Shown here one piece after another: positions 8,545 through 23,463 of a stretch of DNA of 64,000 bases. The stretch is from Nibricoccus aquaticus (GTDB lineage: Bacteria; Verrucomicrobiota; Verrucomicrobiia; Opitutales; Opitutaceae), in the NCBI RefSeq assembly GCF_002310495.1, contig NZ_CP023344.1:1798001-1862000 (forward strand), written 5' to 3'. Within the stretch, counting starts at the first letter, position 1, and the number at the start of each line of letters is the position of its first letter. The translations under genes and the position numbers were made by a program. The notes beneath the pieces were generated by a model that saw nothing but the letters and a program-made list of their open reading frames with translations, was not told the origin of the DNA and did not search any database.

Positions 8545-10233
8545 TCACTTCCCCACGCCCCAGTCAAATACCAGCAACGACACGCCCTGCCGTGGCAGCG
8601 CAAACCCAAGCGCCGCTTCGCCGTTCTTCACATCCACGGCAGAAACATCGCCCACCGTCGTCAACTGACTCTCCTTCTCCAGCTGAGCGTATTGCTCCTG
8701 CGTCGGCGCGATCGGCGAACCCATGCGCTTCCACGTCCCGTACGAGTTGCTGTGCATCTCATCCACGCCGTAATGCGTCACCAGCGCCCCGTGCACATCC
8801 GCCGGAAACCCCGCGACCTTCAACGCCACAGCAGCATCCGCCCCGGCCAAGTCGTCGTCATGATAATGCCACACCATCACCGCGATCTTCGTTTTCTCCA
8901 CGCTCGCAAACGCCGCCACATCCGGCCGCTCGCGCACACCCGCCTTCACCATCACATCGAGCGGTACTTCCGCTGAACTCGTCGTCGCGACGCGCTCTCC
9001 GCCCATCTTCGAAAACATCCGGAAAACATTCAGCACCGGCAGATCGACACCATTCGTCGCCAGCGCACGAAAGCCCGCGAACCACGGCTGATCTTCAAAC
9101 TCAAACGCCCACGTCACCGCGCCCTCGAAGTTCACGCCATGCTTGTCCGCGAGTAGATGCTTCCGCGCAAAACTAGCCGCCGTGTAACTCGAATACATCG
9201 TGCCGTTGCGATAACCATTCTGCGGACTCTGACACGCCGCGCACCCTTCCGGATCGGATTCACCGATAATGATCGGCCGGTCCTTCAGCGCCGTGAACGC
9301 CGCGATTTTTCCGAACCCCCGATCAATCGCCGTCAGATGATTCGAGATGCCCATGCGCACATGCCCGTCGACAAACACCGGCGAACCTTTCGCGTGAAAC
9401 GCCAGAAAGTCCGTCGGCGTCCCCACCTTGCCCGTCGCATAATTTTTCCCACTCGAGACGTGCTTCAGAAAATCGTCCATGAACTTCCCGCCGCTGCCCG
9501 CCGAGTGCGGCCCGCCGACCTTCGCCGTCGGCAGCGCCTTCCGCACGCCGTCGATCGCATAGTCGTGCGTCTTGTACCACTCCTCCGGCGTGCCCTTCCA
9601 ATAATGGCCGTTCGCCTCGTTCCACACTTCCCAATACCACTGCTCCACTTCCTCCTTACCATACCGCTCCACGCAGTGCTTCACCCATTGGTAAACCAGC
9701 TCACGCCACTTGTCGTAGTCCTTTGGCGGATAAGCCCAGCCCGTGATGATATTCTCGTACGGCAACCCCGGACGCCACTCATGCCGGTAAGGTTCCGGAT
9801 GCGTTGACAGCGCCTGCGGCATGAACCCGATCTGCGCAAACGGCCGCACGCCACGCCCAACATAAGAATCGAAAATCAAATCCACCACTCGCCAGTCGTA
9901 CACCGGCTTCCCCTGCGCATCCTCCGTATAAATATTCGTGCTCCCCCACTTCAGCGCCGGCGTCCCGTCACCGCTCGTGAGCAGATTATGCGTGCGAAAG
10001 AAAACCTGCTGCGGCTTCAGCTCGCCGAGATGCTTCAGCAACTTCTGCCCATCCTTCATCGTCGCATAGTTCGGTTCGTCAGCGCCGAAGAAACGCCACA
10101 CAGGCTTCAACTCTCCCACTTGTTTCGCCGCATCCACCTGAATCGAAACCGGAAACGCCTCCGCCGCCCGCGCGACCGAAGTCATCAAAGCTGCCGCCAC
10201 CAACACACACGCCAACATCGAGGGTATTTTCAT
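8545..10233 (-). CDS. beta-xylosidase-like glycoside hydrolase, GH39
   Basis: Secreted enzyme of 562 residues predicted to remove xylose from the non-reducing end of xylo-oligosaccharides. ATG 10233 is chosen because a signal peptide begins there (MKIPSMLACVLVAAALMTSVARA) with a GAGGG ribosome site just upstream; a longer frame exists but reads repeat-like sequence. The barrel shows the acid/base motif WYWEVWNEANGHYWKG and the nucleophile motif RPIIIGESDPEGC, both as in GH39. A C-terminal beta-sandwich (about 440-562) follows. It lies alone between the sigma module and a TonB receptor gene. Other GH39 specificities (for example iduronidase) are possible; the xylan-rich window supports xylosidase. 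Confidence 0.88.
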   Translation of the reverse strand: MKIPSMLACVLVAAALMTSVARAAEAFPVSIQVDAAKQVGELKPVWRFFGADEPNYATMKDGQKLLKHLGELKPQQVFFRTHNLLTSGDGTPALKWGSTNIYTEDAQGKPVYDWRVVDLIFDSYVGRGVRPFAQIGFMPQALSTHPEPYRHEWRPGLPYENIITGWAYPPKDYDKWRELVYQWVKHCVERYGKEEVEQWYWEVWNEANGHYWKGTPEEWYKTHDYAIDGVRKALPTAKVGGPHSAGSGGKFMDDFLKHVSSGKNYATGKVGTPTDFLAFHAKGSPVFVDGHVRMGISNHLTAIDRGFGKIAAFTALKDRPIIIGESDPEGCAACQSPQNGYRNGTMYSSYTAASFARKHLLADKHGVNFEGAVTWAFEFEDQPWFAGFRALATNGVDLPVLNVFRMFSKMGGERVATTSSAEVPLDVMVKAGVRERPDVAAFASVEKTKIAVMVWHYHDDDLAGADAAVALKVAGFPADVHGALVTHYGVDEMHSNSYGTWKRMGSPIAPTQEQYAQLEKESQLTTVGDVSAVDVKNGEAALGFALPRQGVSLLVFDWGVGK

Positions 10234-10306
10234 GGGGACGCCCTCACCCAAACTCTCCGACTTCACCACCGCAACCCACCCGAACTGTAAGCCAACCAAA
10301 CACCCC

Positions 10307-10343
10307 AATCCTGTTCATCCTGAAAATCCTGTCCAAAATTCCG
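10307..10343 (+). repeat. oriented intergenic repeat, family A copy 2
   Basis: AATCCTGTTCATCCTGAA followed by AATCCTGTCCAAAATTCCG. Same orientation as the other copies although both flanking genes are on the minus strand. It is followed by the second three-hairpin element. Confidence 0.65.
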
Positions 10344-10347
10344 TCAC

Positions 10348-10458
10348 CCCGGCGCGCGATTAGCGCGCCCCTCCGCTCGGTCGGCGTAGGCGATCAGCCG
10401 AAGCCAAATCTCCAATTTTCGGCCTTTGGCCGAAACCTTTTAGTGGTCAAAAATTCCG
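10348..10458. repeat. three-hairpin intergenic element, copy 2
   Basis: GGCGCGC-GATTA-GCGCGCC (10351-10369), a middle stem TCGGC...GCCGA, and TTTCGGCC-TTT-GGCCGAAA (10417-10435), then GTCAAAAATTCCG. Compared with the copy at 2157, the first stem is unchanged with one loop change, and the third stem has paired compensatory changes, which argues for a selected structure. Confidence 0.65.
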
Positions 10459-10494
10459 CCTCTGCCTCTGGCATCTGCGCGCTCGCTCGCGCTC

Positions 10495-12579
10495 CTACCA
10501 CGCCACCCGCACGCCACCTCGCACCCACCGCGGCGCATCGTACGTCAGCAACCCTGTCGCACTCCGGCTCGTCACGACGTCCTCATCAAAAACATTCTCC
10601 ACCGCCGCAAACACCGTCAGCCTCAGCCCCGCCCGTCTTCCTTCCCTCGCACGCACTCTCCACGATTTCTCCACCCGCAAATCCACCGTCACCGCCTCTC
10701 TCAACACCAGCGCGTTCTCATCATCCTCAAACTGCTCGCTCGTGTAGCGCCCCGCCACCCGCACGTTCAGCCCGCCCGGCGCCCTCCAATCAACCGACGC
10801 CGTCGCCTTATGCTCCGGCGCCTGCGCCAACCGCTTCCCCACGAGCGACGCCTGCGCCCGCGCCTCCGTCACTTCCGCGTCGCTCCACAAATACCCCGCC
10901 CGCAACTCCAGCGCCTCCACCACCCGCCAGCCCGCGCCCAACTCTACCCCACTCACCCGCACCGTATCCAGATTCTGGCGCTGCCGCGTCGTCAGCGCCG
11001 GATTCGTGCTCAACGTCACATTCCCCACCGCATCCTCCAGCTCATTCCAAAACCCCGTCGCCTCCAGCCGCCACGCTCCGCGCGTAAACTCTGTTCCCAC
11101 TTCCCCGCCCGTCAGCGTCTCCCTTTTCAAGTCCGCATTCGCGAGCGTGTTCACCGTCCCCACGCGAAACGGCCGGTAATACTCATTCAACGTCGGCACC
11201 CGGAACGCCCGATAAACCGCCCCGCGCACCCGCCACGCCTCACTCGCTTTCCACACCAGCCCCGCGCGCGGACTCAGCTCCATCCCCGCCTGCGTCGCAA
11301 AATTTTCCTCCGCCACCACCGCGCCGCTCGCCCGCGCCACTTCCCTCAAACGCCCGTCCGCATTCTCCCAAAAATCCGCCCGCACATCGACCGACGCCCG
11401 CCACCGCTCCGCAATCCGCCGGTCATGATGCACAAACGCTCCCGCAAAAATCTGCTCCCCACCCGCAAATCTCCGCCGCGACAACTGCCCCGCCTGAAAC
11501 AAAAAATCCTCCCGCGTCTCCCCTTCCACCCAGCGCACATCCCCACCCACCGCCATGCTCGCCACATCGCTGTCCTTCCACGTCACGCTCGCCGAAGTCC
11601 CCGCCGCCGTCGCCGGAACCTCAAACTGATCATTCGCCGGCGTCTCTGCACTCCGCGTCGCATTCACCGTCGTGAAAAAACTCTCGAAGCTCTGCCGCTG
11701 CCCATACGCCACCGCCGCCCAACTCAACCCCGGCCTCGGCTCTCCCTCTATCGCCGCCGACACAAACCCCGCCCGCGTCGCATTCCCCTGCATCGCCGTC
11801 CCATTCCCCCGCTCCTCCTCGAAAAACCGCCCCGTCACATTCGCCCGCACGTGTTCACTCACCGCCCCACTCCACGCCACCCGCGCCGTCCGATGCTCCG
11901 ACGACAACGCCCGGTCCACCGCGCCACGATCCGCCTCCTTCAACGCATAAAACCCTTCCGTCGAAAACGCCTCCACATCCACCCGCAAAAATCCCCCGCC
12001 CACGGCTCGCGTCACCGCAGCCTCTCCGCGCCACATCTCAAAACCCCCAAACTCCGCGCGCACTTCCTGCCTCTCCGTCTCCACGGCCACACTCTCGAGC
12101 GCCACCACCCCGCTGAGCGCCGCGCTCCCCCATACACTCGAGCCGCCGCCACTCACGATCTGAGCGCCACCGAGCGACATCCGCGGCACCGCACTCCAGC
12201 TCACCCATCCGCCAAACGGATCGTTGAGCGGCACGCCATCGAGCAACACCAGCGACCGGCTCGCTCCACTCGGCCCGATCCCGCGCAAAGAAACACCCTG
12301 CGCCGTCGGATTCGCCGCCACACTGCTCGTCCGCCGAAAAAGCCCGAACGCCGTCTCCTCTCGCAACGCCACATCCACGCCCATTGCTACGCGCAACCGC
12401 TCCCCATCCACCACCCGCACCGCCAGCGGCACTTCATCCATCATCTGCGGTGCCCGCGAAGCGGATACGACCAACCTCGATAACACCTCCACCTCCTGCG
12501 CCCGCACCGCCCTGCCACCGCCCTGCAAAATCACCCCGGCCACCACGACGGCCGGAAACCCCCACTCACGAAACTTCAT
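10495..12579 (-). CDS. TonB-dependent outer-membrane receptor (BtuB/CirA-size)
   Basis: Outer-membrane receptor of 694 residues. ATG 12579 begins a signal peptide (MKFREWGFPAVVVAGVILQGGGRAVRAQ); the plug follows with SRLVVSASRAPQMMDEVPLAVRVVDGERL and TAQGVSLRGIGPSGASRSLVLLDGVPLNDPFGGWVSW, then a 22-stranded barrel ending in the aromatic-rich APRWVRGGVRVAW. This is the size of vitamin B12, siderophore or copper-type receptors, not the roughly 1000-residue sugar receptors. Nothing next to it identifies the ligand, and I could not make a cobalamin riboswitch from its leader. A 21-base palindrome lies about 165 bases upstream (12745-12765). Confidence 0.88.
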   Translation of the reverse strand: MKFREWGFPAVVVAGVILQGGGRAVRAQEVEVLSRLVVSASRAPQMMDEVPLAVRVVDGERLRVAMGVDVALREETAFGLFRRTSSVAANPTAQGVSLRGIGPSGASRSLVLLDGVPLNDPFGGWVSWSAVPRMSLGGAQIVSGGGSSVWGSAALSGVVALESVAVETERQEVRAEFGGFEMWRGEAAVTRAVGGGFLRVDVEAFSTEGFYALKEADRGAVDRALSSEHRTARVAWSGAVSEHVRANVTGRFFEEERGNGTAMQGNATRAGFVSAAIEGEPRPGLSWAAVAYGQRQSFESFFTTVNATRSAETPANDQFEVPATAAGTSASVTWKDSDVASMAVGGDVRWVEGETREDFLFQAGQLSRRRFAGGEQIFAGAFVHHDRRIAERWRASVDVRADFWENADGRLREVARASGAVVAEENFATQAGMELSPRAGLVWKASEAWRVRGAVYRAFRVPTLNEYYRPFRVGTVNTLANADLKRETLTGGEVGTEFTRGAWRLEATGFWNELEDAVGNVTLSTNPALTTRQRQNLDTVRVSGVELGAGWRVVEALELRAGYLWSDAEVTEARAQASLVGKRLAQAPEHKATASVDWRAPGGLNVRVAGRYTSEQFEDDENALVLREAVTVDLRVEKSWRVRAREGRRAGLRLTVFAAVENVFDEDVVTSRSATGLLTYDAPRWVRGGVRVAW

Positions 12580-12690
12580 AAGAGAAAAGCGACGCACCCC
12601 GCACCTTCCCCCAAACCCCGCCCCACGTGAAGCCACCACTGACCGATTTCCCCAAAGATTCCTCTTCCAGTCAGACCCCACCCCCTCCCT

Positions 12691-13210: not shown

Positions 13211-14548
13211 ATGAACCAGCTCTCAATCGAATCCACCCTGCCTCGCATCGGCATGGTCTCCACTCACGGCTACGTCGCCGCCATCCCGCCCCTCGGCGCA
13301 GCCGACACCGGCGGCCAGGTCGTCTACGTCATCGAACTCTCCAAGAAACTCGCCCAGCTCGGCTTCGAGGTCGACATCTGGACCCGCCGTTTCGAAGACC
13401 AGCCCGAGATCGACATCGTCAACGAACGCGTCCGCGTCATCCGCGTCCCCTGCGGCGGCAAAAAATTCATCGGCAAGGAATACCTCGTCGATCACCTCCC
13501 GGAGTGGTCCGAAAACGCCCTCCGCTTCATCGCGAAGCACGGCCTCAAATATCACTTCTTCAACTCCCACTACTGGGACGCCGGCGTCGCCACCCAACGC
13601 CTCGCCGAAGCCCTCGACGTCCCCCACATCCACACGCCCCATTCCCTCGGCCTATGGAAAAAGCAGCTCATGGAAAAAGACTTTCCCGATGACGCCGCCG
13701 CCCTCGAAAAAAAGTACAACTTCGCCGAACGCATCCGCCAGGAAACCCTTCTCTACCGCTCCTGCGAAGCCGTGGTCGCCACCACCCCGCCCCAGCTCGA
13801 CCTCATCACCCACGACTACGGCACCGTCACCGAAAACGCCCACATGATTCCCCCGGGCTACGACGACAACCGCTTCTACCCCGTCTCCGCCGCCTCCCGG
13901 AAATCCATCCGCCAGCGCCTCGGCTTCGAAGGTCAGGTCGTCCTCGCCCTCGGCCGCCTCGCCCGCAACAAAGGCTACGACCTCCTCGTCGAGTCCTTCG
14001 CCCTCGTCGCCACGCGCATCCCCGATGCGATCCTCCACCTCGCCGTCGGTGGCGAAAAACTGAATACCAACGAGCAGACCATCCTCGACGAACTCAAAGC
14101 CCAGGTCGCCCGCCTCGGCCTCGAATCCCGCGTCAAGTTCGGCGGCTTCGTCTCCGAAGCCGATCTCCCCGACTACTACCGCGCCGCCGACATCTTCGTC
14201 CTCTGCAGCCGCTACGAACCCTTCGGCATGACCGCCATCGAAGCCATGGCCTGCGGCGCGCCCACCGTCGTCACGACACAAGGCGGCCTCTTCCGCGCCA
14301 TCTCCTTCGGCCGCCACGCCCTCTACGGCGACCCCTTCGACCGCGAAGACCTCGGCATCATGATCGTGAAACCCCTCCGCCACCCACGACTCGCCGCCCG
14401 CCTCTCCCGCATGGGCGCGCACAAAGCCCGCAGCCTCTTTACCTGGACCGGCATCGCTCAACAACTCATCAGCCTCGTCGAAGAACGCGTCTCCGCCGCT
14501 TCTTTCACCGACACCGAATGGGACGAACCCTGGAACGACGGCGACTAA
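13211..14548 (+). CDS. mfpsA: mannosylfructose-phosphate synthase (GT4)
   Basis: Cytoplasmic glycosyltransferase of 445 residues. The family joins GDP-mannose and fructose 6-phosphate to make mannosylfructose 6-phosphate, precursor of a non-reducing compatible solute. The N-terminus (IGMVSTHGYVAAIPPLGAAD then TGGQVVYVIELSKKLAQLG), FNSHYWDAGVATQRL, HTPHSLGLWKKQ, the GT-B motif SRYEPFGMTAIEAMACGAPT and the ending MGAHKARSLFTWTGIAQQL...WNDGD fit the Agrobacterium enzyme as I remember it better than sucrose-phosphate synthases. ATG 13211 matches the family N-terminus; ATG 13172 would add 13 residues. The next gene is the matching phosphatase, 175 bases on. Sucrose-phosphate synthase is the alternative. 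Confidence 0.85.
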   Translation: MNQLSIESTLPRIGMVSTHGYVAAIPPLGAADTGGQVVYVIELSKKLAQLGFEVDIWTRRFEDQPEIDIVNERVRVIRVPCGGKKFIGKEYLVDHLPEWSENALRFIAKHGLKYHFFNSHYWDAGVATQRLAEALDVPHIHTPHSLGLWKKQLMEKDFPDDAAALEKKYNFAERIRQETLLYRSCEAVVATTPPQLDLITHDYGTVTENAHMIPPGYDDNRFYPVSAASRKSIRQRLGFEGQVVLALGRLARNKGYDLLVESFALVATRIPDAILHLAVGGEKLNTNEQTILDELKAQVARLGLESRVKFGGFVSEADLPDYYRAADIFVLCSRYEPFGMTAIEAMACGAPTVVTTQGGLFRAISFGRHALYGDPFDREDLGIMIVKPLRHPRLAARLSRMGAHKARSLFTWTGIAQQLISLVEERVSAASFTDTEWDEPWNDGD

Positions 14549-14564
14549 GACTCCCCCTCTTCCT

Positions 14565-14589
14565 GTAGCCGCGCTGCCCGCAGCGCGGC
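14565..14589 (+). repeat. REP-like hairpin with GTAG head, class 3
   Basis: GTAG overlapping a perfect stem GCCGCGCTG-CCCG-CAGCGCGGC, 17 bases after the synthase stop. It may weaken read-through into the phosphatase gene. Confidence 0.6.
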
Positions 14590-14650
14590 CTCCGTCCTCC
14601 AACAATCACTCCTAATCCCAAACCGCCGGACAACCTACGCATACCGTCAC

Positions 14651-14702
14651 GCCTCTGTGTCCTCCGTGTCCGCGCTCCGTGCCCTCTGTGGCCAAAGTAA
14701 CC
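14651..14702 (+). repeat. oriented intergenic repeat, family B copy 3
   Basis: Units CTCTGTGT, CCTCCGTGT, CGCGCTCCGTGC, CCTCTGTGG followed by CCAAAGTAACC, directly before the phosphatase-glycosidase start. Confidence 0.6.
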
Positions 14703-14723
14703 TTCGCCCAATCCCAGCTTCCC

Positions 14724-16841
14724 ATGAGCGACCAAAAATCTTTATCCGCCTCTCGCCCCATCCGCCTTTTCAGCACCGACCTCGACGGCACCCTCCTCGG
14801 CAACCCCGAGGCCGCCAACCGCTTCGCCACCGCCTGGTCCTCGCTCCCCGCCGCCACCCGCCCGCTCCTCGTCTATAATAGCGGCCGCCTCCTCGACGAC
14901 ACCCAGCGCCTCATCACCACCGGCGAACTCCCCGCCCCCGACTACATCATCGGCGGCGTCGGCACCCAGATCCACGACGCCCGCGCCAACCGCACGCTCA
15001 CCGAATTCGCCGACCGCATGTCTCCCGGCTGGGACTTGGAAAAAGTGAAAGCTGTTGTCTCCGCGCTTCCTGTCATCCGTCCGCAGCCCGACCACTTTCA
15101 ACACGCCTTCAAATCCAGCTGGTTTTTCGAAAACGCCACGCCCCTTCAGCTGGAAACCCTCGAACAACAACTCGCCGCCGCCGGACTCGACACCTGCGTC
15201 GTGTATTCGAGTAACCGCGACCTCGATGTCATCCCCCGCCACGCCAACAAAGGCGGTGCTCTCTCCTGGCTCTGCGCGCGCCTGGGCATCGCGACCGACG
15301 AAGTCCTCGTCGCGGGCGACACCGGCAACGACGCCGGCATGTTCCGCCTCCCCGGCGTCCGCGGCATCATCGTTCAGAACGCTCACCCAGAACTCTTCAC
15401 CGCCACCGTCGATATCCCGATCTACACCTCCGGACTCGTCATGGCCGACGGCGTCCTCGAAGGCCTCCGCCATTACGGCATCATCACCCGCGCCCCTTCC
15501 GCCGGCCAAAGCGGCATCTCCGCGGAAAAAATGTCCGCCCCCTTCCGCCAGCTCTTCACCGGCACCCAGCTCGGCTCGCTCTCCGACGACGAGAAAAAGC
15601 TCATCCACACCGGCTACGAAAAAGCCCTCGTCGCCCTCCGCAAAAACATCACGCCCCTCGGCTTCTCCGCCTGCTCCCTCGCCGATAACGCCGTCACCGG
15701 CACCGACATCAACTACCGCTCCGTCTGGGCCCGCGATGGTTCGATGACCGTCATCTACACGCTCGATCTCGAAGACTCCGACATCCGCGCCGCCCAAAAA
15801 GCCACGCTGGAAACCCTCCTCAGCGCCGCCTCTCCCTCCGGCCAGATTCCCGCCAACGTCCGCATCGACAACGCCGAGGCCGATTACGGCGGCGTCGGCA
15901 ACATCTGCTCCATCGACTCCGGCCTCTGGGTCATCATCGCCGTCTACAACTACGTCAACAAGACCAACGACCTCGACTTCCTCCGCGCCCACATCGACCG
16001 CCTCCAGATCGCGATGAACTGGCTCAGCGCGCACGATAGCAACAACGACGGTCTCCTCGAAATCCCCGAGGCCGGCGACTGGACCGACCTCTTCGGTCGC
16101 AGCTACAACGTCCTCTACGACGAAGTCCTCTGGTACCGCACCAACGTCTGCTTCGGCCGCCTCCTCGAATTCCTCGGCCGCTTCGAACACGCCGCCGATT
16201 ACCTCCGCTGGTCGCAAAAAGTCCGTGCCCGCGTTCTCGATACATTCTGGCCCACCACCCGCATCTCCGACCCGAAGGCCCCGCCCGCGAACCGCTTCGC
16301 CGACCGCCAGTTCGGCCTCGGCGACACCCAGTACCTCCTCGCCGAGATCACGCCCTTCTCCTTCAACTGGCGCTGCGACGTGTACGCCAACGTCCTCGCG
16401 TTCCTCATGCACGTGCTCGACATCGACCGCGCCCGCACCGCCTTCCGCTTCATGTGGGGAGTCGGCGTCAACAACCCCTGGCCCGTTTCCAACTTGTATC
16501 CAGTTGTCCAGGCCGGCGACCCCGACTGGCGCTCCTACTACACGGTCAATCTCCTCAATCTCCCCAACCATTATCACAACGGCGGCATCTGGCCCTTCGT
16601 CGGCGGTATGTGGGTCCGCTTCATCCACCAACTCGGCTTCCACGACGTCGCCTGCCGCGAACTCCTCCAACTCACCAAGCTCAACAAACTCGGTCGCGAC
16701 CAAGAGTGGGAATTCAACGAATGGGCCCACGGCATCACCGGCCGCCCCATGGGCAAAGCCTTCCAAGCCTGGTCCGCCGCATCCTTCATCAAAGCCTGCC
16801 ACGAACTCGAAGCCACCCCCACCAACGAGCCCCGCGACTAA
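14724..16841 (+). CDS. mannosylfructose-phosphatase (HAD-IIB) fused to a six-hairpin glycosidase domain
   Basis: Two-domain protein of 705 residues. Residues about 10-250 are an HAD-IIB phosphatase (FSTDLDGTLLG, VYNSGRL, YIIGGVGTQIHD, NKGGALSWLC, VAGDTGNDAGMF) closest to mannosylfructose-phosphate and sucrose-phosphate phosphatases. Residues about 260-700 form an (alpha/alpha)6-type glycosidase related to amylo-alpha-1,6-glucosidase and neutral invertase-like enzymes: NYRSVWARDGSMTVIYTLDL, GNICSIDSGLWVIIAVYNYV, IPEAGDWTDLFGRSYNVLYD, NHYHNGGIWPFVGGMW, QEWEFNEWAHGITGRPMGK. So one chain could dephosphorylate the disaccharide and also hydrolyse it or a related glycoside. ATG 14724 gives the family-like start; the longer frame reads repeat. 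The activity of the second domain is unproven. Confidence 0.82.
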   Translation: MSDQKSLSASRPIRLFSTDLDGTLLGNPEAANRFATAWSSLPAATRPLLVYNSGRLLDDTQRLITTGELPAPDYIIGGVGTQIHDARANRTLTEFADRMSPGWDLEKVKAVVSALPVIRPQPDHFQHAFKSSWFFENATPLQLETLEQQLAAAGLDTCVVYSSNRDLDVIPRHANKGGALSWLCARLGIATDEVLVAGDTGNDAGMFRLPGVRGIIVQNAHPELFTATVDIPIYTSGLVMADGVLEGLRHYGIITRAPSAGQSGISAEKMSAPFRQLFTGTQLGSLSDDEKKLIHTGYEKALVALRKNITPLGFSACSLADNAVTGTDINYRSVWARDGSMTVIYTLDLEDSDIRAAQKATLETLLSAASPSGQIPANVRIDNAEADYGGVGNICSIDSGLWVIIAVYNYVNKTNDLDFLRAHIDRLQIAMNWLSAHDSNNDGLLEIPEAGDWTDLFGRSYNVLYDEVLWYRTNVCFGRLLEFLGRFEHAADYLRWSQKVRARVLDTFWPTTRISDPKAPPANRFADRQFGLGDTQYLLAEITPFSFNWRCDVYANVLAFLMHVLDIDRARTAFRFMWGVGVNNPWPVSNLYPVVQAGDPDWRSYYTVNLLNLPNHYHNGGIWPFVGGMWVRFIHQLGFHDVACRELLQLTKLNKLGRDQEWEFNEWAHGITGRPMGKAFQAWSAASFIKACHELEATPTNEPRD

Positions 16842-16915: not shown

Positions 16916-18388
16916 TCACCGCAACGCCACACTCAACCCCCACCGCTCCAGCGTCCCCCCGATCTCCCGGTCATACAACGCCGCCGCAATCCGCTCCTCC
17001 GAGATCGCCCGATACATCGCCACCTCCACCCCCGAAAGCGACTCCTGCAACGACAGCACCACAAACGTCGTACTCGCGCCCGTGCGGAGCTTCTTCACCT
17101 CATCATCGAGCGCCTCCTTCGCCAGCTCGTACCCCGCGCGCGTGGCCACGATCCGCTGCTGGACGCTATCCAGCCGCCCCGCCGCCAGGCTCACGTTCAA
17201 CGCGATCTCCTGTTTGAACCGCTCTAGGTCTTCTTCGGCTTGCTCACGCTCCAAACGCGCCGCCCTCAACCGCCCCCGCTCCCGCGCAAACGTGAGCGGC
17301 ACAGTCAGGACAACGCCTGCCGAGTAACTCCCAAACTCGCGGTCACTCACCATCCGCCGACTGTCCCGCGCCGTCTCGCCGACACCACTGAAACTATAAC
17401 CGCCGACAACGTCCAATCGCGGCATCAACCAATTCCGCGCATATGCCAGATCCGCGTCTCTCTTACCCAGAAGAAGCCGAGCCTGCTGAAAATCGGGACG
17501 CAGCTCCCACGCCTTCTCCAAGTCAGCCGCCGCGATCCTCTCTGGCGAAATCGATCCCACCTGCACTGCTAGCAGCGATGCGCGTTCCGTCGGCATGTCC
17601 TCTCCCAACAAATGCCGCAGCCGCAGATCCGCATCGCGCAGCGCCCGGTCGGCCAGAATCACCGCCTCGCCACGCGCCGCCGCCCGCGCCCGCGCCTGAA
17701 CCAGCTGGTTATTCGACATGCCGCCCGCATTCACCCGGATCTCGTTTTCCCGAATCAAATTCGCGGCCAGATCGCGTGATCGCTGCGTCACGCGCAGATA
17801 TTCATGCGAGAACTGAAGATCGCTGTAAGCGACGATCACCCGCGTCACCGTATCGATCACGACCTGCCGGAACTCCCACTCCGAAATTTTCGCGTCCGCT
17901 TTGAGAAGCCTGACTTCGTACAACTGTGCATCCGATCCCGCTCCTTTAAGCAACGGCTGCGTCACGCTGATGCCGGAATACGCGTCATACTCTCCCGCAC
18001 TCCCGCGAACACGTTCGCCCGTCCACGACGTCCCGATGCTGTAGTCCAGTCCCCACGGCGTGCGCCCATCCAAAGATGCCCGGTAACCATCACGCTTATT
18101 GAACGACCCACTCGTCGCCACACTCGAAGCAAACGGCATCTCCTCTTTCTCGTAATCACGCCCCACCGTCAGCGCCGGATCAAAAACGCCCTTGCCGCCA
18201 AACAGTCGCGCCCGCGCGATCTCCGGCGAAAACCGCACCACCTTGATCTGCCGGTTATGCGCGAGCGCCCGCTGAATCGCCTCCTGCAAACTAAGCGGCT
18301 CCGCCGTTTCCGTCTGCGCAGACAGCCCGCTCAATCCGCAAAGACACAGCGCTGCGATCTTCCAACAATTCATCGCCGCTTTCATCAC
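16916..18388 (-). CDS. TolC-family outer-membrane efflux channel
   Basis: Outer-membrane channel of 490 residues, the exit duct of a tripartite pump. Signal peptide (about 1-24, ending SAQ), then LSLQEAIQRALAHNRQIKVVRFSPEIARARL, the usual TolC start, two long helical coiled-coil halves (for example TQRSRDLAANLIRENEIRVNAGGMSNNQLVQARARAAARGEAVILADRAL), beta segments YSGISVTQPLLKGAG and FGSYSAGVVLTVPL, and a second helical repeat LAAGRLDSVQQRIVATRAGYELAKEALDDEVKKL. Its start overlaps the ATPase stop by four bases. Last gene of the PadR-headed operon. Confidence 0.9.
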   Translation of the reverse strand: MMKAAMNCWKIAALCLCGLSGLSAQTETAEPLSLQEAIQRALAHNRQIKVVRFSPEIARARLFGGKGVFDPALTVGRDYEKEEMPFASSVATSGSFNKRDGYRASLDGRTPWGLDYSIGTSWTGERVRGSAGEYDAYSGISVTQPLLKGAGSDAQLYEVRLLKADAKISEWEFRQVVIDTVTRVIVAYSDLQFSHEYLRVTQRSRDLAANLIRENEIRVNAGGMSNNQLVQARARAAARGEAVILADRALRDADLRLRHLLGEDMPTERASLLAVQVGSISPERIAAADLEKAWELRPDFQQARLLLGKRDADLAYARNWLMPRLDVVGGYSFSGVGETARDSRRMVSDREFGSYSAGVVLTVPLTFARERGRLRAARLEREQAEEDLERFKQEIALNVSLAAGRLDSVQQRIVATRAGYELAKEALDDEVKKLRTGASTTFVVLSLQESLSGVEVAMYRAISEERIAAALYDREIGGTLERWGLSVALR

Positions 18389-19086
18389 GCGTTCGCCGCC
18401 GCCGTCACCGCATCGACGACTCGCCCGTCGAGCACATGAATCGTCCGCTCCGCGAAACGCGTGAACCGCGCATCGTGCGTCACCATAACGATGGTCGCAC
18501 CGCCACGATGCAGATCGCGCAAGAGCTCCATCACCGCCTCACCATTCTTCGAATCGAGATTCCCCGTCGGCTCATCCGCCAGCAACACCGCTGGATATCC
18601 CGCCAGCGCACGCGCGACTGCGACACGCTGCTGCTGACCGCCGGAAAGCTGCGCGGGCAGATGCTTCGCACGATGCGACATGCCGACTTTCTCCAGCGCT
18701 TCCGCCACCCTCGCACGTCGTTCGTCCGGCAGCATGCCGCGATAAGTCAGCGGCAGCTCCACGTTTTCCTCGACGCTCAAATCGCCGATCAGGTTGAACG
18801 ATTGAAAAATGAACCCGATCTCACGGTTCCGAATCCGCGCCCGCTCCTGGAGATTCAGCTCATGAACAGCGCGTCCATTAAGCAAATACATCCCTCCTGT
18901 CGGCGCATCAAGCAGCCCGAGGATCGCAAGCAACGTGGACTTCCCGCAGCCCGAAGGCCCCGCGATCGACACGTACTCGCCCTTGTTGACCTCAAGCGAG
19001 ACATCCGCGAGTGCACGCGTCTCGATGTCGTCGGTTTGAAAGACTTTGGTCAGGTTCTCTAGTTGGATAACAGGATGCTGGCTCAT
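18385..19086 (-). CDS. ABC transporter ATPase, MacB/LolD type
   Basis: Cytoplasmic ATPase of 233 residues that powers the adjacent permease. Walker A GPSGCGKST (about 40), Q-loop in IGFIFQSFNLIGDLSVEENVELPLTYRG, signature LSGGQQQRVAVARAL, Walker B VLLADEPTGNLDS and switch His in TIVMVTHDARF are all intact. The short single-domain form with an N-LDS D-loop is that of MacB, LolD and FtsE-like exporters. It sits between the adaptor and TolC genes, overlapping the latter. Confidence 0.95.
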   Translation of the reverse strand: MSQHPVIQLENLTKVFQTDDIETRALADVSLEVNKGEYVSIAGPSGCGKSTLLAILGLLDAPTGGMYLLNGRAVHELNLQERARIRNREIGFIFQSFNLIGDLSVEENVELPLTYRGMLPDERRARVAEALEKVGMSHRAKHLPAQLSGGQQQRVAVARALAGYPAVLLADEPTGNLDSKNGEAVMELLRDLHRGGATIVMVTHDARFTRFAERTIHVLDGRVVDAVTAAANA

Positions 19087-19104
19087 GGGAAAAAGTGCGT
19101 GGAG

Positions 19105-20412
19105 TTATTGAAGTTGGATCCTCTCATGCGCACTCCACTGCGACATATCGGAAAGGATCACGCGGTCTCCGGGCTGCACGCCATCGACGATCTCGACCAG
19201 GCTCACCGAGCTCCGCCCGAGCATCACACGCGTGAGCGAGGCGTGCACGCCATCGGCCTCGAGTTTGAACAACCCCACCGCCCCGCTCTCCTGCCCAAAC
19301 GCCGGACGCGTCACGTAGAGAACATTGTCCAGTCGCTCGATCTCGATCACGCCTTCAATCGACAAATCCGGCCGCGCTCCCCGCGGCAGCTCGCCGCTCA
19401 AACGCACGTCCACCGCCACCGTGCTGGCCTGCACCGACGGATCGATCCGCTCCACGTCGCCTTCAATCACGCCATTACGCGTATCGACGGTTACGCGCTG
19501 ACCAACCTGGATGTCGCGCGTCTGCGTCTCCGCGATCCGGATCTGCGCCTTCAACCGCGTCGGATCCGCCACTCGCGCCAAATTCACGCCCGTCTGCACC
19601 TGTGAACCGATTTCCACCGGCAGGATCTGCAACACACCGCGCATACCCGCCCGCACAGAAAGCGACGCCAATTCATCATGCCGCAGTTTCGCCTGCGCGC
19701 GCAACCGCGACACTTCCGCTTGCTTCACCGCGAGCTGCGGCGCGATAGAGTCCCGCGCAAATTTGAACCGCTTCTCCTCAATCTCGAAACGCGTCCCCGC
19801 ATGCTCCGCATTCACGCGCGAAAGTTTGTAGTCCACCGACGAGAGCAGCCCTTGCTTGAAAAGCTCCTCATTCAACTCGGCGCGCAGCCGCGATTGTTCC
19901 CGCTCCGCACGCGCGCTCGCCAGCGCCGACTCCGCCGCGAGCACCTCGCGCTCCAGCGTCACGTTCAAATTAACCAGCTCCGCCTCGACCGCCGTCAGTT
20001 GTGAATCCGCATTCGCCGCCGCCTGCTCCACCTCCGGATTCGTGAGCACTAGGATCACACTCTCTTCCGTGACCGCAGCGCCCGGACGCAACAGCACGCG
20101 ATCAACCCGCCCCGCCGTGCGCGAAGCGATCCAGCGAATCTCTTCCGGCACCAGCGTCCCGACGCCGCGCACCTGACGCAGCATCGATCCGCGCTTCACC
20201 GTATCAATTAGGACCAGCCCGCGCTCCACCGTCGGAGCCGCCGGTTTCAAAACCATCAGCCCAAGCACGCCGCAGCTGATCAACGCCGCGGCGATCACTC
20301 CAGCAACCAGCCGCCGCTGCTTCCTCGGCCGTTCCGATTTCGGACGCGCCGCGTCCATCGAAGGCACGGCCATCCTTACGACCGTTTCAGAATTTTTGAC
20401 CGTAGAATTCAT
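19105..20412 (-). CDS. HlyD/MacA-type periplasmic adaptor
   Basis: Membrane-fusion protein of 435 residues bridging the inner-membrane permease and the TolC channel. One N-terminal membrane helix (VAGVIAALISCGVLGLMVL, about 37-55), a lipoyl-like segment (VPEEIRWIASRTAGRVDRVLLRPGAAVTEESVILVL), a long alpha-hairpin (about 130-260, with LNVTLEREVLAAESALASARAEREQSRL) and beta-barrel/MP domains with RGVLQILPVEIGSQVQTG and VTVDTRNGVIEGDVERI. It starts 8 bases after the permease gene and ends 18 bases before the ATPase. Confidence 0.9.
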   Translation of the reverse strand: MNSTVKNSETVVRMAVPSMDAARPKSERPRKQRRLVAGVIAAALISCGVLGLMVLKPAAPTVERGLVLIDTVKRGSMLRQVRGVGTLVPEEIRWIASRTAGRVDRVLLRPGAAVTEESVILVLTNPEVEQAAANADSQLTAVEAELVNLNVTLEREVLAAESALASARAEREQSRLRAELNEELFKQGLLSSVDYKLSRVNAEHAGTRFEIEEKRFKFARDSIAPQLAVKQAEVSRLRAQAKLRHDELASLSVRAGMRGVLQILPVEIGSQVQTGVNLARVADPTRLKAQIRIAETQTRDIQVGQRVTVDTRNGVIEGDVERIDPSVQASTVAVDVRLSGELPRGARPDLSIEGVIEIERLDNVLYVTRPAFGQESGAVGLFKLEADGVHASLTRVMLGRSSVSLVEIVDGVQPGDRVILSDMSQWSAHERIQLQ

Positions 20413-20419
20413 GGGAAAA

Positions 20420-23032
20420 TCATTCGCTCCTCAACGCATCCACAGGATTGGAATTCGCCGCCCGCTTCGCCGGAAACCAGCACGCGCCGATCACCACAAC
20501 GACCAGCGCCAGGCTCGCCGCGATGAACACCGCCGGATCATACGCACTCACGCCATACAGCTGACTCGCGATGAGTTTCGCTCCGGCCAGCGCCGCAACG
20601 ATGCCTATGCCCACGCCGACGAACGCGAGCCGCAATCCCTGCCCGATTATCAACTGAATGATTCCGCACGGCGAAGCGCCCAACGCCAGCCGCACGCTCA
20701 ACTCCCGCCGCCTCGTAGCCACCGCATAGGAAACGACTCCGTAAATGCCGACGTACGCGAGCACCGCCGCCGTGATCGCAAACGCCGCGACCAGATTGCG
20801 GAAAAGTTTCCGCCCCTTGAGCGAGTCTTCCATTGCCTGCTCCATGCTTCTCACATTCCCAAGCGGAACGCCGGGATTGAGCCGTTCCACCTCAGCGCGC
20901 ACCGCAGGAAGAATCGAGTCCACCGGCAGTGACGTCCGCACCACGACCGAAAATTTGAACGGATTAAACGTGAGCGGCACGTAGCCTGTGGCTTCCGACT
21001 CCGCCTCCAGCGAGCCATTCACAATCGCCCCGACGACACCGACAATCAGGTAAACACGCCCGCCGATACTCACGCGGTTTCCTACCGCGTCACCGTTCGG
21101 AAAAAAGCACCGGGCTGCCGTATCGTTGATGACCGCCACCTGTGGCGCACCCGTACGATTATCCGCCGCCTCGAAAAAACGTCCCTCGCGCAACCGTGCT
21201 CCGATCGTCTCGAAATAATCTTGGGAGACAAAATTCAACCGCGCTAGCACGCGATCGCGTGCCGCAGCATCGCCCGTTCGCGACATGTATTCTCCAAATG
21301 CCCCTCGTGAAAAGGGTATCGCTCGTCCCGCGCCCGTTTTATCGACGCCAGGAATCGCCCGCAGACGATCCAGTAGCTCGCTTGAAAACAACAGCCGGTC
21401 CTGCGCCTTCGGATATGTCTGCGCCGGAAGCGAAACATCAAACGCGAATACCTGCTTCGCAGAAAAACCGGGATCGATGCGCGCCGCCTGCAAGAGACTC
21501 TTCAGCATCAATCCCGCTCCCACGAGCAACACAAGCGTCAGCGTGATTTCCGAAATCACCAGCAATGACTGCGCGCGGGTTTTGCCGCCCTGCGTCGAGC
21601 GGCCACCGCTCTTGAGTAGTCCGTGGAGATCCGCACGGCGCACGCGCCACGCAGGCAAAACCGCGCAAAGCACGCCCGACGTCGCCGTCAACGCCACCGC
21701 GATAAACAACATGCGCAGATCGAGCTGAAGGGTGATGGTGTTGATGAGTAGATGCGCAGCCACTTGCTGCAAAACAGCCACACCTCCCAGTGCGAGCACC
21801 ACACCCAAGCCGCCACCCGCTGCTGACAGTAACAGACTCTCGCTCATGACATGCCGCATCAGCTGGCCGCTGCTCGCGCCTAACGCTGCCCGCAGCGCGA
21901 TTTCCGGCGCACGGTCACTCGCTCGCGCTAGGAGGAGATTCGCGACATTCGCACATGCAATCAGAAGCAAAAGCGCCACCGCTACCGACAAGCCCAGCAT
22001 CACCTGCTTCGGATTTCGCGCGAGCTGCGACTCCAGCGAACGCACAGCCACGCTCCATTTCTTTTTCCATGCAGGATAGAGCGGATCAAGACGCCCGCGC
22101 AGTGCCTTCAACTCCACCTCGGCCTGCGCCATCGACACACCCGGCTTAAGGCGGGCGTTCACGTCCGCCCAATGCGAAGTCCGTGCACTCCGTTCGGTCT
22201 TTGGCGCGAGGATCGCGGGGATAAAATATTGTGTACCGCGCCAGAACCACGCCCCAGCCGGTAGAATGCCGACGACAACGCGAGGCACATCATCGAGCAC
22301 CACCGTCTGCCCAACCACTGACTCATCGGAACCAAAATGCGATCGCCATAACTCCTCCGAAAGAATGATCACGCGACCTGTTTCAGCCGACTGATCCTCT
22401 TCGGGCAGGAAGCCGCGACCGTGCAATGGGTGAATTCCAAACACACGCGTAAACTCATGCGTCACTTCGACTCCACCGACCGCAACTGCGCCGCTCGAAG
22501 AACGCAGATTACCGCTTACAAGAGCCCACAGCGTGACGGCCTCAAAACTTCGACTATGCTCGCGCCAGTCGCCGAACACCCCGCCCGACGCCTGATTGAG
22601 ACCGCCATCCTCCATCACCTCAAAAAGCGACGCGATCCGCTCCGGCTGCGGATAATGCAGCGGACGAAACACCGTCGCATCCAGCGCCGTGAAAATCGCG
22701 AGATTCGCCCCAATGCCGATCGCCAGCGTCAACACACACACCGCCGTAAACCCGGGCGCGCGCCGCAACGTTCGCGCCGCGAATCGCAGATCACGCCAAA
22801 CATATTCCCAACTCATCGTCCGCTGCTCCCGCGCCGCTTCCTTGAGCTGATCGATTCCACCAAACTGCCGCCGCGCCGCGAAACGCGCTTCCTCCAGCGA
22901 CATGCCTGCCGCGAGATTCGCCGCCGTCGCACGCTCAAGATGATCGGCCATCTCCGCAGCCATGTCGGCTTCGAAAGAGCGCCGCCGAAACAGCGCACGA
23001 AAACGTGAAGAGAGAGAATGCCAGAGATTCAT
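20420..23032 (-). CDS. ADOP-family ABC permease (acidobacterial-type duplicated FtsX)
   Basis: Inner-membrane permease of 870 residues. The N-terminal prefix domain (FRRRSFEADMAAEMADHLERAT...GMSLEEARFAARRQFGG, about 13-72) and the double MacB core mark the ADOP family. Each half has a helix (FTAVCVLTLAIGIGANLAIF; AQSLLVISEITLTLVLLVGAGLMLKSL), periplasmic MacB_PCD domain and FtsX helices (for example VMLGLSVAVALLLLIACANVANLLLARASDRAPEIALRAALGASSGQL and LVAAFAITAAVLAYVGIYGVVSYAVATRRRELSVRLALGAS). This family usually pairs with a PadR regulator, as here 104 bases upstream. The export substrate is unknown; drugs, peptides or lipids are possible. Confidence 0.93.
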   Translation of the reverse strand: MNLWHSLSSRFRALFRRRSFEADMAAEMADHLERATAANLAAGMSLEEARFAARRQFGGIDQLKEAAREQRTMSWEYVWRDLRFAARTLRRAPGFTAVCVLTLAIGIGANLAIFTALDATVFRPLHYPQPERIASLFEVMEDGGLNQASGGVFGDWREHSRSFEAVTLWALVSGNLRSSSGAVAVGGVEVTHEFTRVFGIHPLHGRGFLPEEDQSAETGRVIILSEELWRSHFGSDESVVGQTVVLDDVPRVVVGILPAGAWFWRGTQYFIPAILAPKTERSARTSHWADVNARLKPGVSMAQAEVELKALRGRLDPLYPAWKKKWSVAVRSLESQLARNPKQVMLGLSVAVALLLLIACANVANLLLARASDRAPEIALRAALGASSGQLMRHVMSESLLLSAAGGGLGVVLALGGVAVLQQVAAHLLINTITLQLDLRMLFIAVALTATSGVLCAVLPAWRVRRADLHGLLKSGGRSTQGGKTRAQSLLVISEITLTLVLLVGAGLMLKSLLQAARIDPGFSAKQVFAFDVSLPAQTYPKAQDRLLFSSELLDRLRAIPGVDKTGAGRAIPFSRGAFGEYMSRTGDAAARDRVLARLNFVSQDYFETIGARLREGRFFEAADNRTGAPQVAVINDTAARCFFPNGDAVGNRVSIGGRVYLIVGVVGAIVNGSLEAESEATGYVPLTFNPFKFSVVVRTSLPVDSILPAVRAEVERLNPGVPLGNVRSMEQAMEDSLKGRKLFRNLVAAFAITAAVLAYVGIYGVVSYAVATRRRELSVRLALGASPCGIIQLIIGQGLRLAFVGVGIGIVAALAGAKLIASQLYGVSAYDPAVFIAASLALVVVVIGACWFPAKRAANSNPVDALRSE

Positions 23033-23136
23033 GAAGACAATGGAGTGCCAGGGCGGAGTGCTGCTCCGCTGATTAAAACAAGAGGTTGCTGCTCACCGGG
23101 CGCACCGCGCGCCCGAGGTCACAAGGGGAAGGTAAA

Positions 23137-23463
23137 CTAGGCCGAACTCATCACTTGCTTGATCGCGCCGACGAGCTGATCCCAGTTCTCCTTCTCCGCC
23201 TCGAGCTGCTTCTTGCCCGCCTTGGTCAGAGAATAAAATTTCGCCCGCCGGTTGTTCTCCGACTGCCCCCACTCGGAGTCGATCCAGCCCTTCTGCTCCA
23301 TCCGATAAAGCGAGGGATACAGCGACCCTTCCTCCACTTTGAGAACTTCGCTCGAAAGAACGTGAATCCGCTGCGCGATCCCCCACCCGTGTGTGGAACC
23401 GCCGTTGAGGACGCGAAGAATCAGCATGTCCAGCGTGCCAGGGATGATTTCAACTTTTGCCAT
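23137..23463 (-). CDS. PadR-family transcriptional regulator
   Basis: Repressor of 108 residues with the PadR winged helix: IPGTLDMLILRVLNGGSTHGWGIAQRIHVLSSEVLKVEEGSLYPSLYRMEQKGWIDSEWGQSENNRRAKFYSLTKAGKKQLEAE, i.e. helix-turn-helix to about residue 58, wing with NNRRAKFYSLT, then a C-terminal dimerisation helix. It heads the efflux operon. AGGAAG lies 6 bases before the ATG, and a perfect inverted repeat (23478-23508) lies just upstream, consistent with self-repression relieved by a substrate of the pump. Confidence 0.93.
   Translation of the reverse strand: MAKVEIIPGTLDMLILRVLNGGSTHGWGIAQRIHVLSSEVLKVEEGSLYPSLYRMEQKGWIDSEWGQSENNRRAKFYSLTKAGKKQLEAEKENWDQLVGAIKQVMSSA

Follow-up and report, generated by a model that had tools for sequence, protein, structure and literature searches.

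In the genome of Nibricoccus aquaticus, two neighbouring genes appear to form a cassette that both makes and breaks down a disaccharide. The genes lie in a stretch of 64,000 nucleotides (contig NZ_CP023344.1, positions 1,798,001 to 1,862,000; hereafter the window, to which the coordinates of the pair refer) of a 4.73 Mb single-contig genome. The first encodes a GT4 glycosyltransferase (GT), and the second encodes a HAD phosphatase that is joined in one chain to an (alpha/alpha)6 glycosidase. Most probably, the pair serves to make and then to degrade a non-reducing disaccharide of the hexosyl-fructose type that stays inside the cell, a reading whose probability is estimated at roughly 78%. Three domains with conserved catalytic residues are found, the fusion is recurrent, and it is paired with one of two synthase types.

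In the proposed pathway, the GT4 enzyme would take a hexose from a nucleotide-sugar donor and attach it to fructose-6-phosphate (Fru6P), the HAD half would remove the phosphate and thereby render the synthesis irreversible, and the glycosidase half, which resembles family GH100, would split the finished disaccharide into hexose and fructose. Each catalytic activity, the use of Fru6P as acceptor, the location inside the cell and the action of the glycosidase on the pathway's own product are predictions. The two halves of the fusion must be switched against each other, because a futile cycle would otherwise result. Most likely, the enzymes would be modulated by ions or phosphate, with control by salt as the first model. 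Salt inhibits the cyanobacterial invertase SyInv of Synechocystis (PMC6753628).

Domains and catalytic residues of the gene pair

The fusion gene (14,724..16,841, forward strand) encodes 705 amino acids from its ATG start or 720 from a GTG at 14,679, from which the residues are counted here. The sequence-only reading that had drawn attention to this locus placed both genes correctly, and its joining of phosphatase and glycosidase in one open reading frame (ORF) is borne out; the extension on the phosphatase comes to about 430 residues, where some 440 residues of an (alpha/alpha)6 fold had been given. Residues 28–272 (14,760..15,494, forward strand) form a putative HAD-IIB phosphatase domain of the S6PP type, as the PF05116 (S6PP) model scores 214 bits on residues 29–268 (gathering cut-off 20.3). 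The TIGR01485 equivalog of plant and cyanobacterial sucrose-phosphatase reaches 149.5 bits, under its cut-off of 183.65. The DxD, K and GDxxND motifs of S6PP-type HAD-IIB enzymes are present, the first as D34-x-D36 (DLD; 14,778..14,786, forward strand). D34 and K191 are kept in all 71 fusions compared, and D36 in 70 of them, the exception being L099 (L-numbers label fetched loci and G-numbers sampled genomes). The best solved sequence relative of this half is the sucrose-phosphatase of Synechocystis (1s2o).

The glycosidase domain (residues 285–716; 15,531..16,826, forward strand) was assigned as GH100-like from Pfam and from fold comparison. PF12899 (GH100) scores 54.6 bits on the fusion (gathering cut-off 23.6) with its best stretch at 551–708, and PF06202 (GDE_C) scores 40.3 bits with its best stretch at 398–704. 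The best solved sequence relative is the alkaline invertase 5goo of Anabaena. A structure model of the fusion was built from a 42-row alignment (mean pLDDT 83.1, pTM 0.87). Foldseek searches with this model placed 1s2o first for the HAD half and the InvA, InvB and CINV invertases first for the glycosidase half. VIA-align superposed the model on 5goq with a Z score of 32.3 (rmsd 3.3, 363 aligned residues), and other (alpha/alpha)6 glycosidases followed at 31.0 and lower. The glycosidase half taken alone gave a Z score of 31.0 against 5goq (rmsd 3.7, 358 aligned), again the top match but tied with 6ttj and with the next families within 0.5. Modelling this half by itself did not raise the mean pLDDT (78.4, weak at 258–284 and 340–348) and left the ranking unchanged.

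In a profile alignment, D470 (16,086..16,088, forward strand) falls on Asp188 of InvA and E681 (16,719..16,721, forward strand) on Glu414, the chain's own numbering being one higher for both. We take Asp188 to be the acid and Glu414 the base, which makes D470 the candidate general acid and E681 the candidate general base. Both InvA residues have been tied to catalysis (PMC10661998). A glycosidase half without catalytic acids would have spoken against the sequence-only reading, and the opposite was found: D470 and E681, together with R352 and D353, are kept in 71/71 fusions and in 12/12 stand-alone glycosidases.

The GT gene (13,211..14,548, forward strand; 445 residues with GT4 domains) encodes a candidate hexosyl-fructose-6-phosphate synthase. 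Its best solved match is Tll1590 (6kih), the sucrose-phosphate synthase (SPS) of Thermosynechococcus (TeSPS), followed by 3c48 and 3c4q and then by 2r60; we take 3c48 to be MshA and 2r60 to be the SPS of Halothermothrix (HoSPS). By alignment, H144 (13,640..13,642, forward strand) corresponds to His158 of TeSPS and E336 (14,216..14,218, forward strand) to Glu331, and H144, E336, R174, K89 and Q36 are invariant in the 34 GT rows aligned. Of the TeSPS residues compared, His158, Glu331 and Arg178 thus have invariant equivalents in the GT, Arg105 reads as Lys and Arg253 as Asn; this matching assumes that chain numbers lie three above those of PMC7264703. In TeSPS, His158 and Glu331 are essential and contact the 6-OH and the 3-OH of the hexose, respectively, and the contact to O2 of the hexose is made by the UDP phosphate (PMC7264703). 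Because this last contact comes from the nucleotide, no residue of the GT can be named as diagnostic of the donor. The site residues, several of which are common to MshA, are in keeping with a sugar phosphate as acceptor but are no proof that it is Fru6P.

The window GT is not a canonical SPS and, as far as its sequence tells, forms a clade of its own. The TIGR02472 model for canonical SPS gives it 196.5 bits, well under the curated cut-off of 576, which two control SPS proteins pass (L036, 622 bits; L079, 672 bits). In the GT tree, a 37-row clade that includes a GT of Paracoccus sp. TOH stands apart from TeSPS, MshA, HoSPS and the SPS rows; the trees were quick ones with SH-aLRT support only, and the mutual order of TeSPS, MshA and HoSPS, all on long branches, is unreliable. 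The GT may also resemble MfpsA of Agrobacterium, as the sequence-only reading had claimed; the comparison covered TeSPS, MshA, HoSPS and the SPS rows. No MfpsA-type model occurs among the best 25 of 38 NCBIfam matches.

Recurrence of the fusion and its exceptions

Homologues were sought by exact matching of six short peptide patterns taken from the fusion protein, a scan that samples the family unevenly. It returned 62 loci for the fusion, mostly from records that bear the name of Verrucomicrobiota or of one of its members; only a few fused loci carry another name (Planctomyces, Acidobacteria, Anaerolineae, Flavobacteriaceae, Saprospiraceae). Once loci from searches of sampled genomes had been added and eight loci that duplicated the window or another locus had been excluded, fused ORFs, called by alignment-length thresholds, were present in 75 fetched loci. 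Removal of five identical copies leaves 70 fusions besides that of the window. With 70 further non-identical fusions, an origin by chance, frameshift, assembly error or a broken gene is ruled out. In the fusion tree, the nearest named relative is the Opitutaceae record L002.

Among the neighbours of the 75 fused ORFs, this GT was found 58 times and an SPS five times, and 12 loci had no partner in the stretch. All 63 partners (three of the loci being identical copies) lie on the same strand as the fusion, in the order GT-fusion in 53, fusion-GT in five and fusion-SPS in five. Ten of the 12 partnerless loci were traced to eight genomes, and each of the eight carries the GT elsewhere; the other two, L004 and L043, are at contig ends and lay outside this tracing. 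In a sample of the window's phylum, a match to the fusion protein occurs in 30/387 genomes, 26 of them fused; by match ranges, the remaining four comprise two with the glycosidase alone, one with the phosphatase alone and one with a glycosidase remnant. The GT occurs in 23/377 genomes, all of which are among those 30. The other seven are accounted for by five genomes with an SPS, by G421 with a GT beside its fusion and by G394 with the remnant. Within the phylum to which a Pirellulales genome belongs, 8/246 genomes have a match and two are fused. The parts of the cassette travel together. The sequence-only reading had added that mannosylfructose is known from few bacteria; the frequencies above hold for the cassette whatever its product.

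The three parts also occur separately. In some Planctomycetota (Pirellulales loci) they are separate genes: in L044, L046, L047 and L049, GT, HAD and glycosidase lie within about 5 kb, the glycosidase gene running opposite to the other two, which share a strand. No HAD was seen in the locus stretch of L048, and the HAD of L108 is just 30% identical. Two loci from genomes of a Pirellulales record's phylum, L149 (7299–10,201, forward strand) and L150 (2503–3345 and 3066–5453, forward strand), carry a GT, a separate HAD and then a fusion.

Several observations weigh against the proposed cassette. The glycosidase half is just 16–20% identical to GH100 structures, and 5goq leads the next (alpha/alpha)6 glycosidases by only 0.5–1.3 Z units; with rival families of this fold scoring nearly as high on the models, the fold alone cannot name the substrate. 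The window's glycosidase family lacks a short Arg-bearing stretch that follows the GK of InvA, InvB and CINV1. This Arg may correspond to the conserved Arg430 of PMC10661998, the numbering of chain and paper being apparently one apart. A HAD of this family is missing from the stretches of L105/L109 and L151, where GT and glycosidase are present, and G004 has GT and HAD with no glycosidase match in the genome. Finally, the fused HAD of L150 reads PLD in place of DLD and so lacks its first catalytic Asp, which the separate HAD upstream of it retains.

Some further arrangements were observed. L116 (5692–8333) and L117 (6287–8504) pair a GT with a stand-alone HAD and have no adjoining glycosidase, and G033 holds three GT copies, one of them beside the fusion. 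A 262-residue frame (82% identical) that retains roughly the C-terminal third of the glycosidase occurs in L058 (5665–6450; Cephaloticoccus) and in L106 (1489–2274; G394, a member of the window's family). This remnant looks like a decayed cassette, and G394 has no GT match. L055, L056, L057, L059 and L062, from Chloroflexota and Paenibacillus, are stand-alone glycosidases at 33–38% identity with unchanged catalytic residues, and no GT or HAD of the cassette families is found in their stretches.

Neighbour clustering over up to 65 loci gave no recurring third gene, such as a nucleotide-sugar or kinase gene, that would betray the sugar. The fusion and the GT/SPS make up its two largest groups; next in size come groups that start with shadow frames in GC-rich DNA, and those of two to four loci stem mostly from close relatives (members unannotated). 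A search of the openly licensed literature, outside which most subscription papers fall, yielded no account of the fusion, and two mannosylfructose papers (PMC7356697, PMC13308351) do not deal with one. The union of synthesis and hydrolysis steps in one polypeptide would be the unusual feature of the cassette.

Partner swap and the identity of the sugar

The neighbour of the L036 fusion is a canonical SPS with a C-terminal phosphatase-like domain. SPS-type proteins also adjoin the fusion in G119, G284, G295 and G359, and in G318 such a protein, 63% identical to the SPS of L036, adjoins a stand-alone HAD. These five are 60–73% identical to that of L036, and the TIGR02472 score refers to L036 only. 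The phosphatase tail is degenerate in 6/6: DxD reads DLP or DLL, without its second Asp, and the final motif is missing its GD. Both motifs are intact (DIDNT and GDSGND) in the SPS of L079, whose genome (G039) gave no match to the fusion. Because the tail has lost key residues in all six, the adjoining HAD must supply the sucrose-phosphatase step in this clade. In cyanobacteria, the commoner arrangement is an SPS whose phosphohydrolase domain is inactive, accompanied by a separate sucrose-phosphatase (SPP) (PMC6753628). Judged by its neighbourhood, the fusion of the SPS-partnered clade very probably handles sucrose.

Twelve genomes, picked for their known cassette type and not at random, were searched with both synthases: five have SPS only, seven GT only and none has both. 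The best GT-type matches in the SPS-only genomes reach 29–31% identity, and the best SPS-type matches in the GT-only genomes 28–32%. In the fusion tree, the SPS-partnered fusions group as a single clade (SH-aLRT 100) next to L097 and nested in the GT-partnered ones, which corresponds to one change on a long branch. At least 90% of 56 GT-partnered fusions agree in 247 columns; the five SPS-partnered fusions all keep 220 of these and all replace ten. A second count, on slightly different columns, used segments around the catalytic residues, which hold 37 of 250 conserved columns. Three of ten fixed differences fall inside these segments (T469M, G473N, F640W; hypergeometric p 0.17). Control clades gave 0/9, 0/5, 0/14, 0/2, 1/9, 0/2, 0/5 and 0/1, that is, 0/24 over six non-overlapping clades or 1/47 with two nested ones. 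T357A also lies in such a segment and is among the ten replaced columns of the 247-column count; in the segment count it was just under the 90% limit. L044, which is GT-partnered, also has M at 469. These data give hints that specificity may have shifted along with the partner.

For the window's lineage, the predicted product is a hexosyl-fructose, with mannosylfructose slightly ahead of sucrose. One explanation holds that the GT-partnered lineages make mannosylfructose, the GT using GDP-mannose and the fusion acting as mannosylfructose-phosphatase and hydrolase, and that the SPS clade switched to sucrose. The chances of this are close to even. It is consistent with the GT being a subfamily separate from canonical SPS and with the changes beside the general acid that accompany the partner swap. 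The mannosylfructose assignment of the sequence-only reading stands in part: a fused phosphatase-glycosidase does lie beside a GT4 enzyme with Fru6P-type acceptor residues outside canonical SPS, but mannose as the donor is unsupported, given the SPS clade and the distribution of GDP-mannose genes. Genes of the GDP-mannose pyrophosphorylase type proved useless as a discriminator, as they are present in 19/19 genomes with either partner; none of the matches reaches the TIGR01479 cut-off of 372.95, and the best cover about the first 350 of 467 positions. Against mannosylfructose also count the lack of any other widely recurrent neighbour gene and the nearest solved relatives, which are sucrose enzymes.

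Alternatively, the sugar may be sucrose throughout, the GT being a divergent UDP-glucose SPS and the fusion a sucrose-phosphatase plus invertase in every lineage. This is plausible, at somewhat less than even odds. The SPS genes with degenerate tails beside the fusion or the HAD, the mutual exclusion of GT and SPS in the 12 genomes, the 220 unchanged columns and the relationship to TeSPS, SPP and InvA all argue for it. Against it stand the position of the GT outside TeSPS, HoSPS and the SPS clade, albeit in a quick tree with long branches, and the low TIGR02472 score. The partner swap, a single change on a long branch, may also have come with a change of sugar, as the share of fixed differences near the active site, higher than in the control clades, hints; but the p value is just 0.17, and M at 469 also occurs in L044. 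That the glycosidase half is a scaffold, or hydrolyses a glycoside other than the cassette product, is improbable: the stand-alone relatives indicate a family wider than the cassette and G004 dispenses with the glycosidase, but the catalytic residues are intact in every fusion and the separate glycosidase gene of Pirellulales still adjoins GT and HAD.

Within the preferred reading of a hexosyl-fructose cassette, a more specific scenario is offered tentatively and with some doubt. The fusion would be a self-contained mannosylfructose turnover enzyme toggled by ions, with synthesis and breakdown opposed in one chain, and one verrucomicrobial clade would have converted the cassette to sucrose by taking up a canonical SPS whose phosphatase domain is dead and by altering residues next to the glycosidase's general acid.

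Surroundings and comparison with known systems

Upstream of the cassette and divergent from it, a GH39-type glycosidase gene (177 bits) adjoins a gene for a TonB-dependent receptor (8545–12,681, reverse strand). On its 3' side, a row of efflux genes occupies the other strand (16,916–23,463, reverse strand) and encodes an outer-membrane efflux protein, an ABC ATPase, a HlyD-type adaptor, a MacB/FtsX permease and a PadR regulator. Inspection for promoters and terminators in the window yielded nothing informative.

Single chains that hold the last making step and the first breaking step of a compound are uncommon, and the known examples are regulatory switches. Mannosylfructose is known from very few organisms, and no hydrolase is known to have been assigned to it. 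If the product is mannosylfructose, this solute would not be rare in Verrucomicrobiota, and if the fusion hydrolyses it, the enzyme would be, as far as we are aware, the first hydrolase for that sugar. A fusion spread across a phylum, together with a natural swap of the synthase, offers a ready comparison for the determinants of mannose versus glucose in both synthase and glycosidase.

Four known systems invite comparison. On a plasmid of Paracoccus sp. TOH (L084, 5716–9308), a GT 46% identical to that of the window lies beside an S6PP-type HAD; instead of the window-type glycosidase, the third gene there encodes a protein with a weak match to GH32 (24.6 bits, cut-off 22.1), a possible fructosidase in the glycosidase's role. 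The GH63-type mannosylglycerate/glucosylglycerate hydrolases (4wvb and 5ohz, the latter presumably of this family) have the fold in common with the window glycosidase and also turn over a small glycoside. However, they rank below GH100 in Foldseek, and PF22422, the GH63-type MGH1-like model, scores 23.5 bits on the fusion, under its gathering cut-off of 27. The mannosylfructose pathway of Agrobacterium, reportedly described by Torres and Salerno in 2007, is said to pair a GT4 synthase (MfpsA) with an S6PP-type HAD (MfppB), as the window does with a GT that is not of the canonical SPS type. Unlike the window fusion, MfppB is said to have no glycosidase attached.

The cyanobacterial route of SPS, SPP and alkaline/neutral invertase has its three steps in common with the cassette (PMC6753628, PMC7264703), and its enzymes are the nearest relatives: the HAD half is closest to the Synechocystis SPP, the glycosidase half to InvA and InvB, and the best solved match of the GT is TeSPS. 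In cyanobacteria, however, phosphatase and invertase are separate proteins, whereas in the window they form one chain, beside a GT that the tree places apart from the SPS rows.

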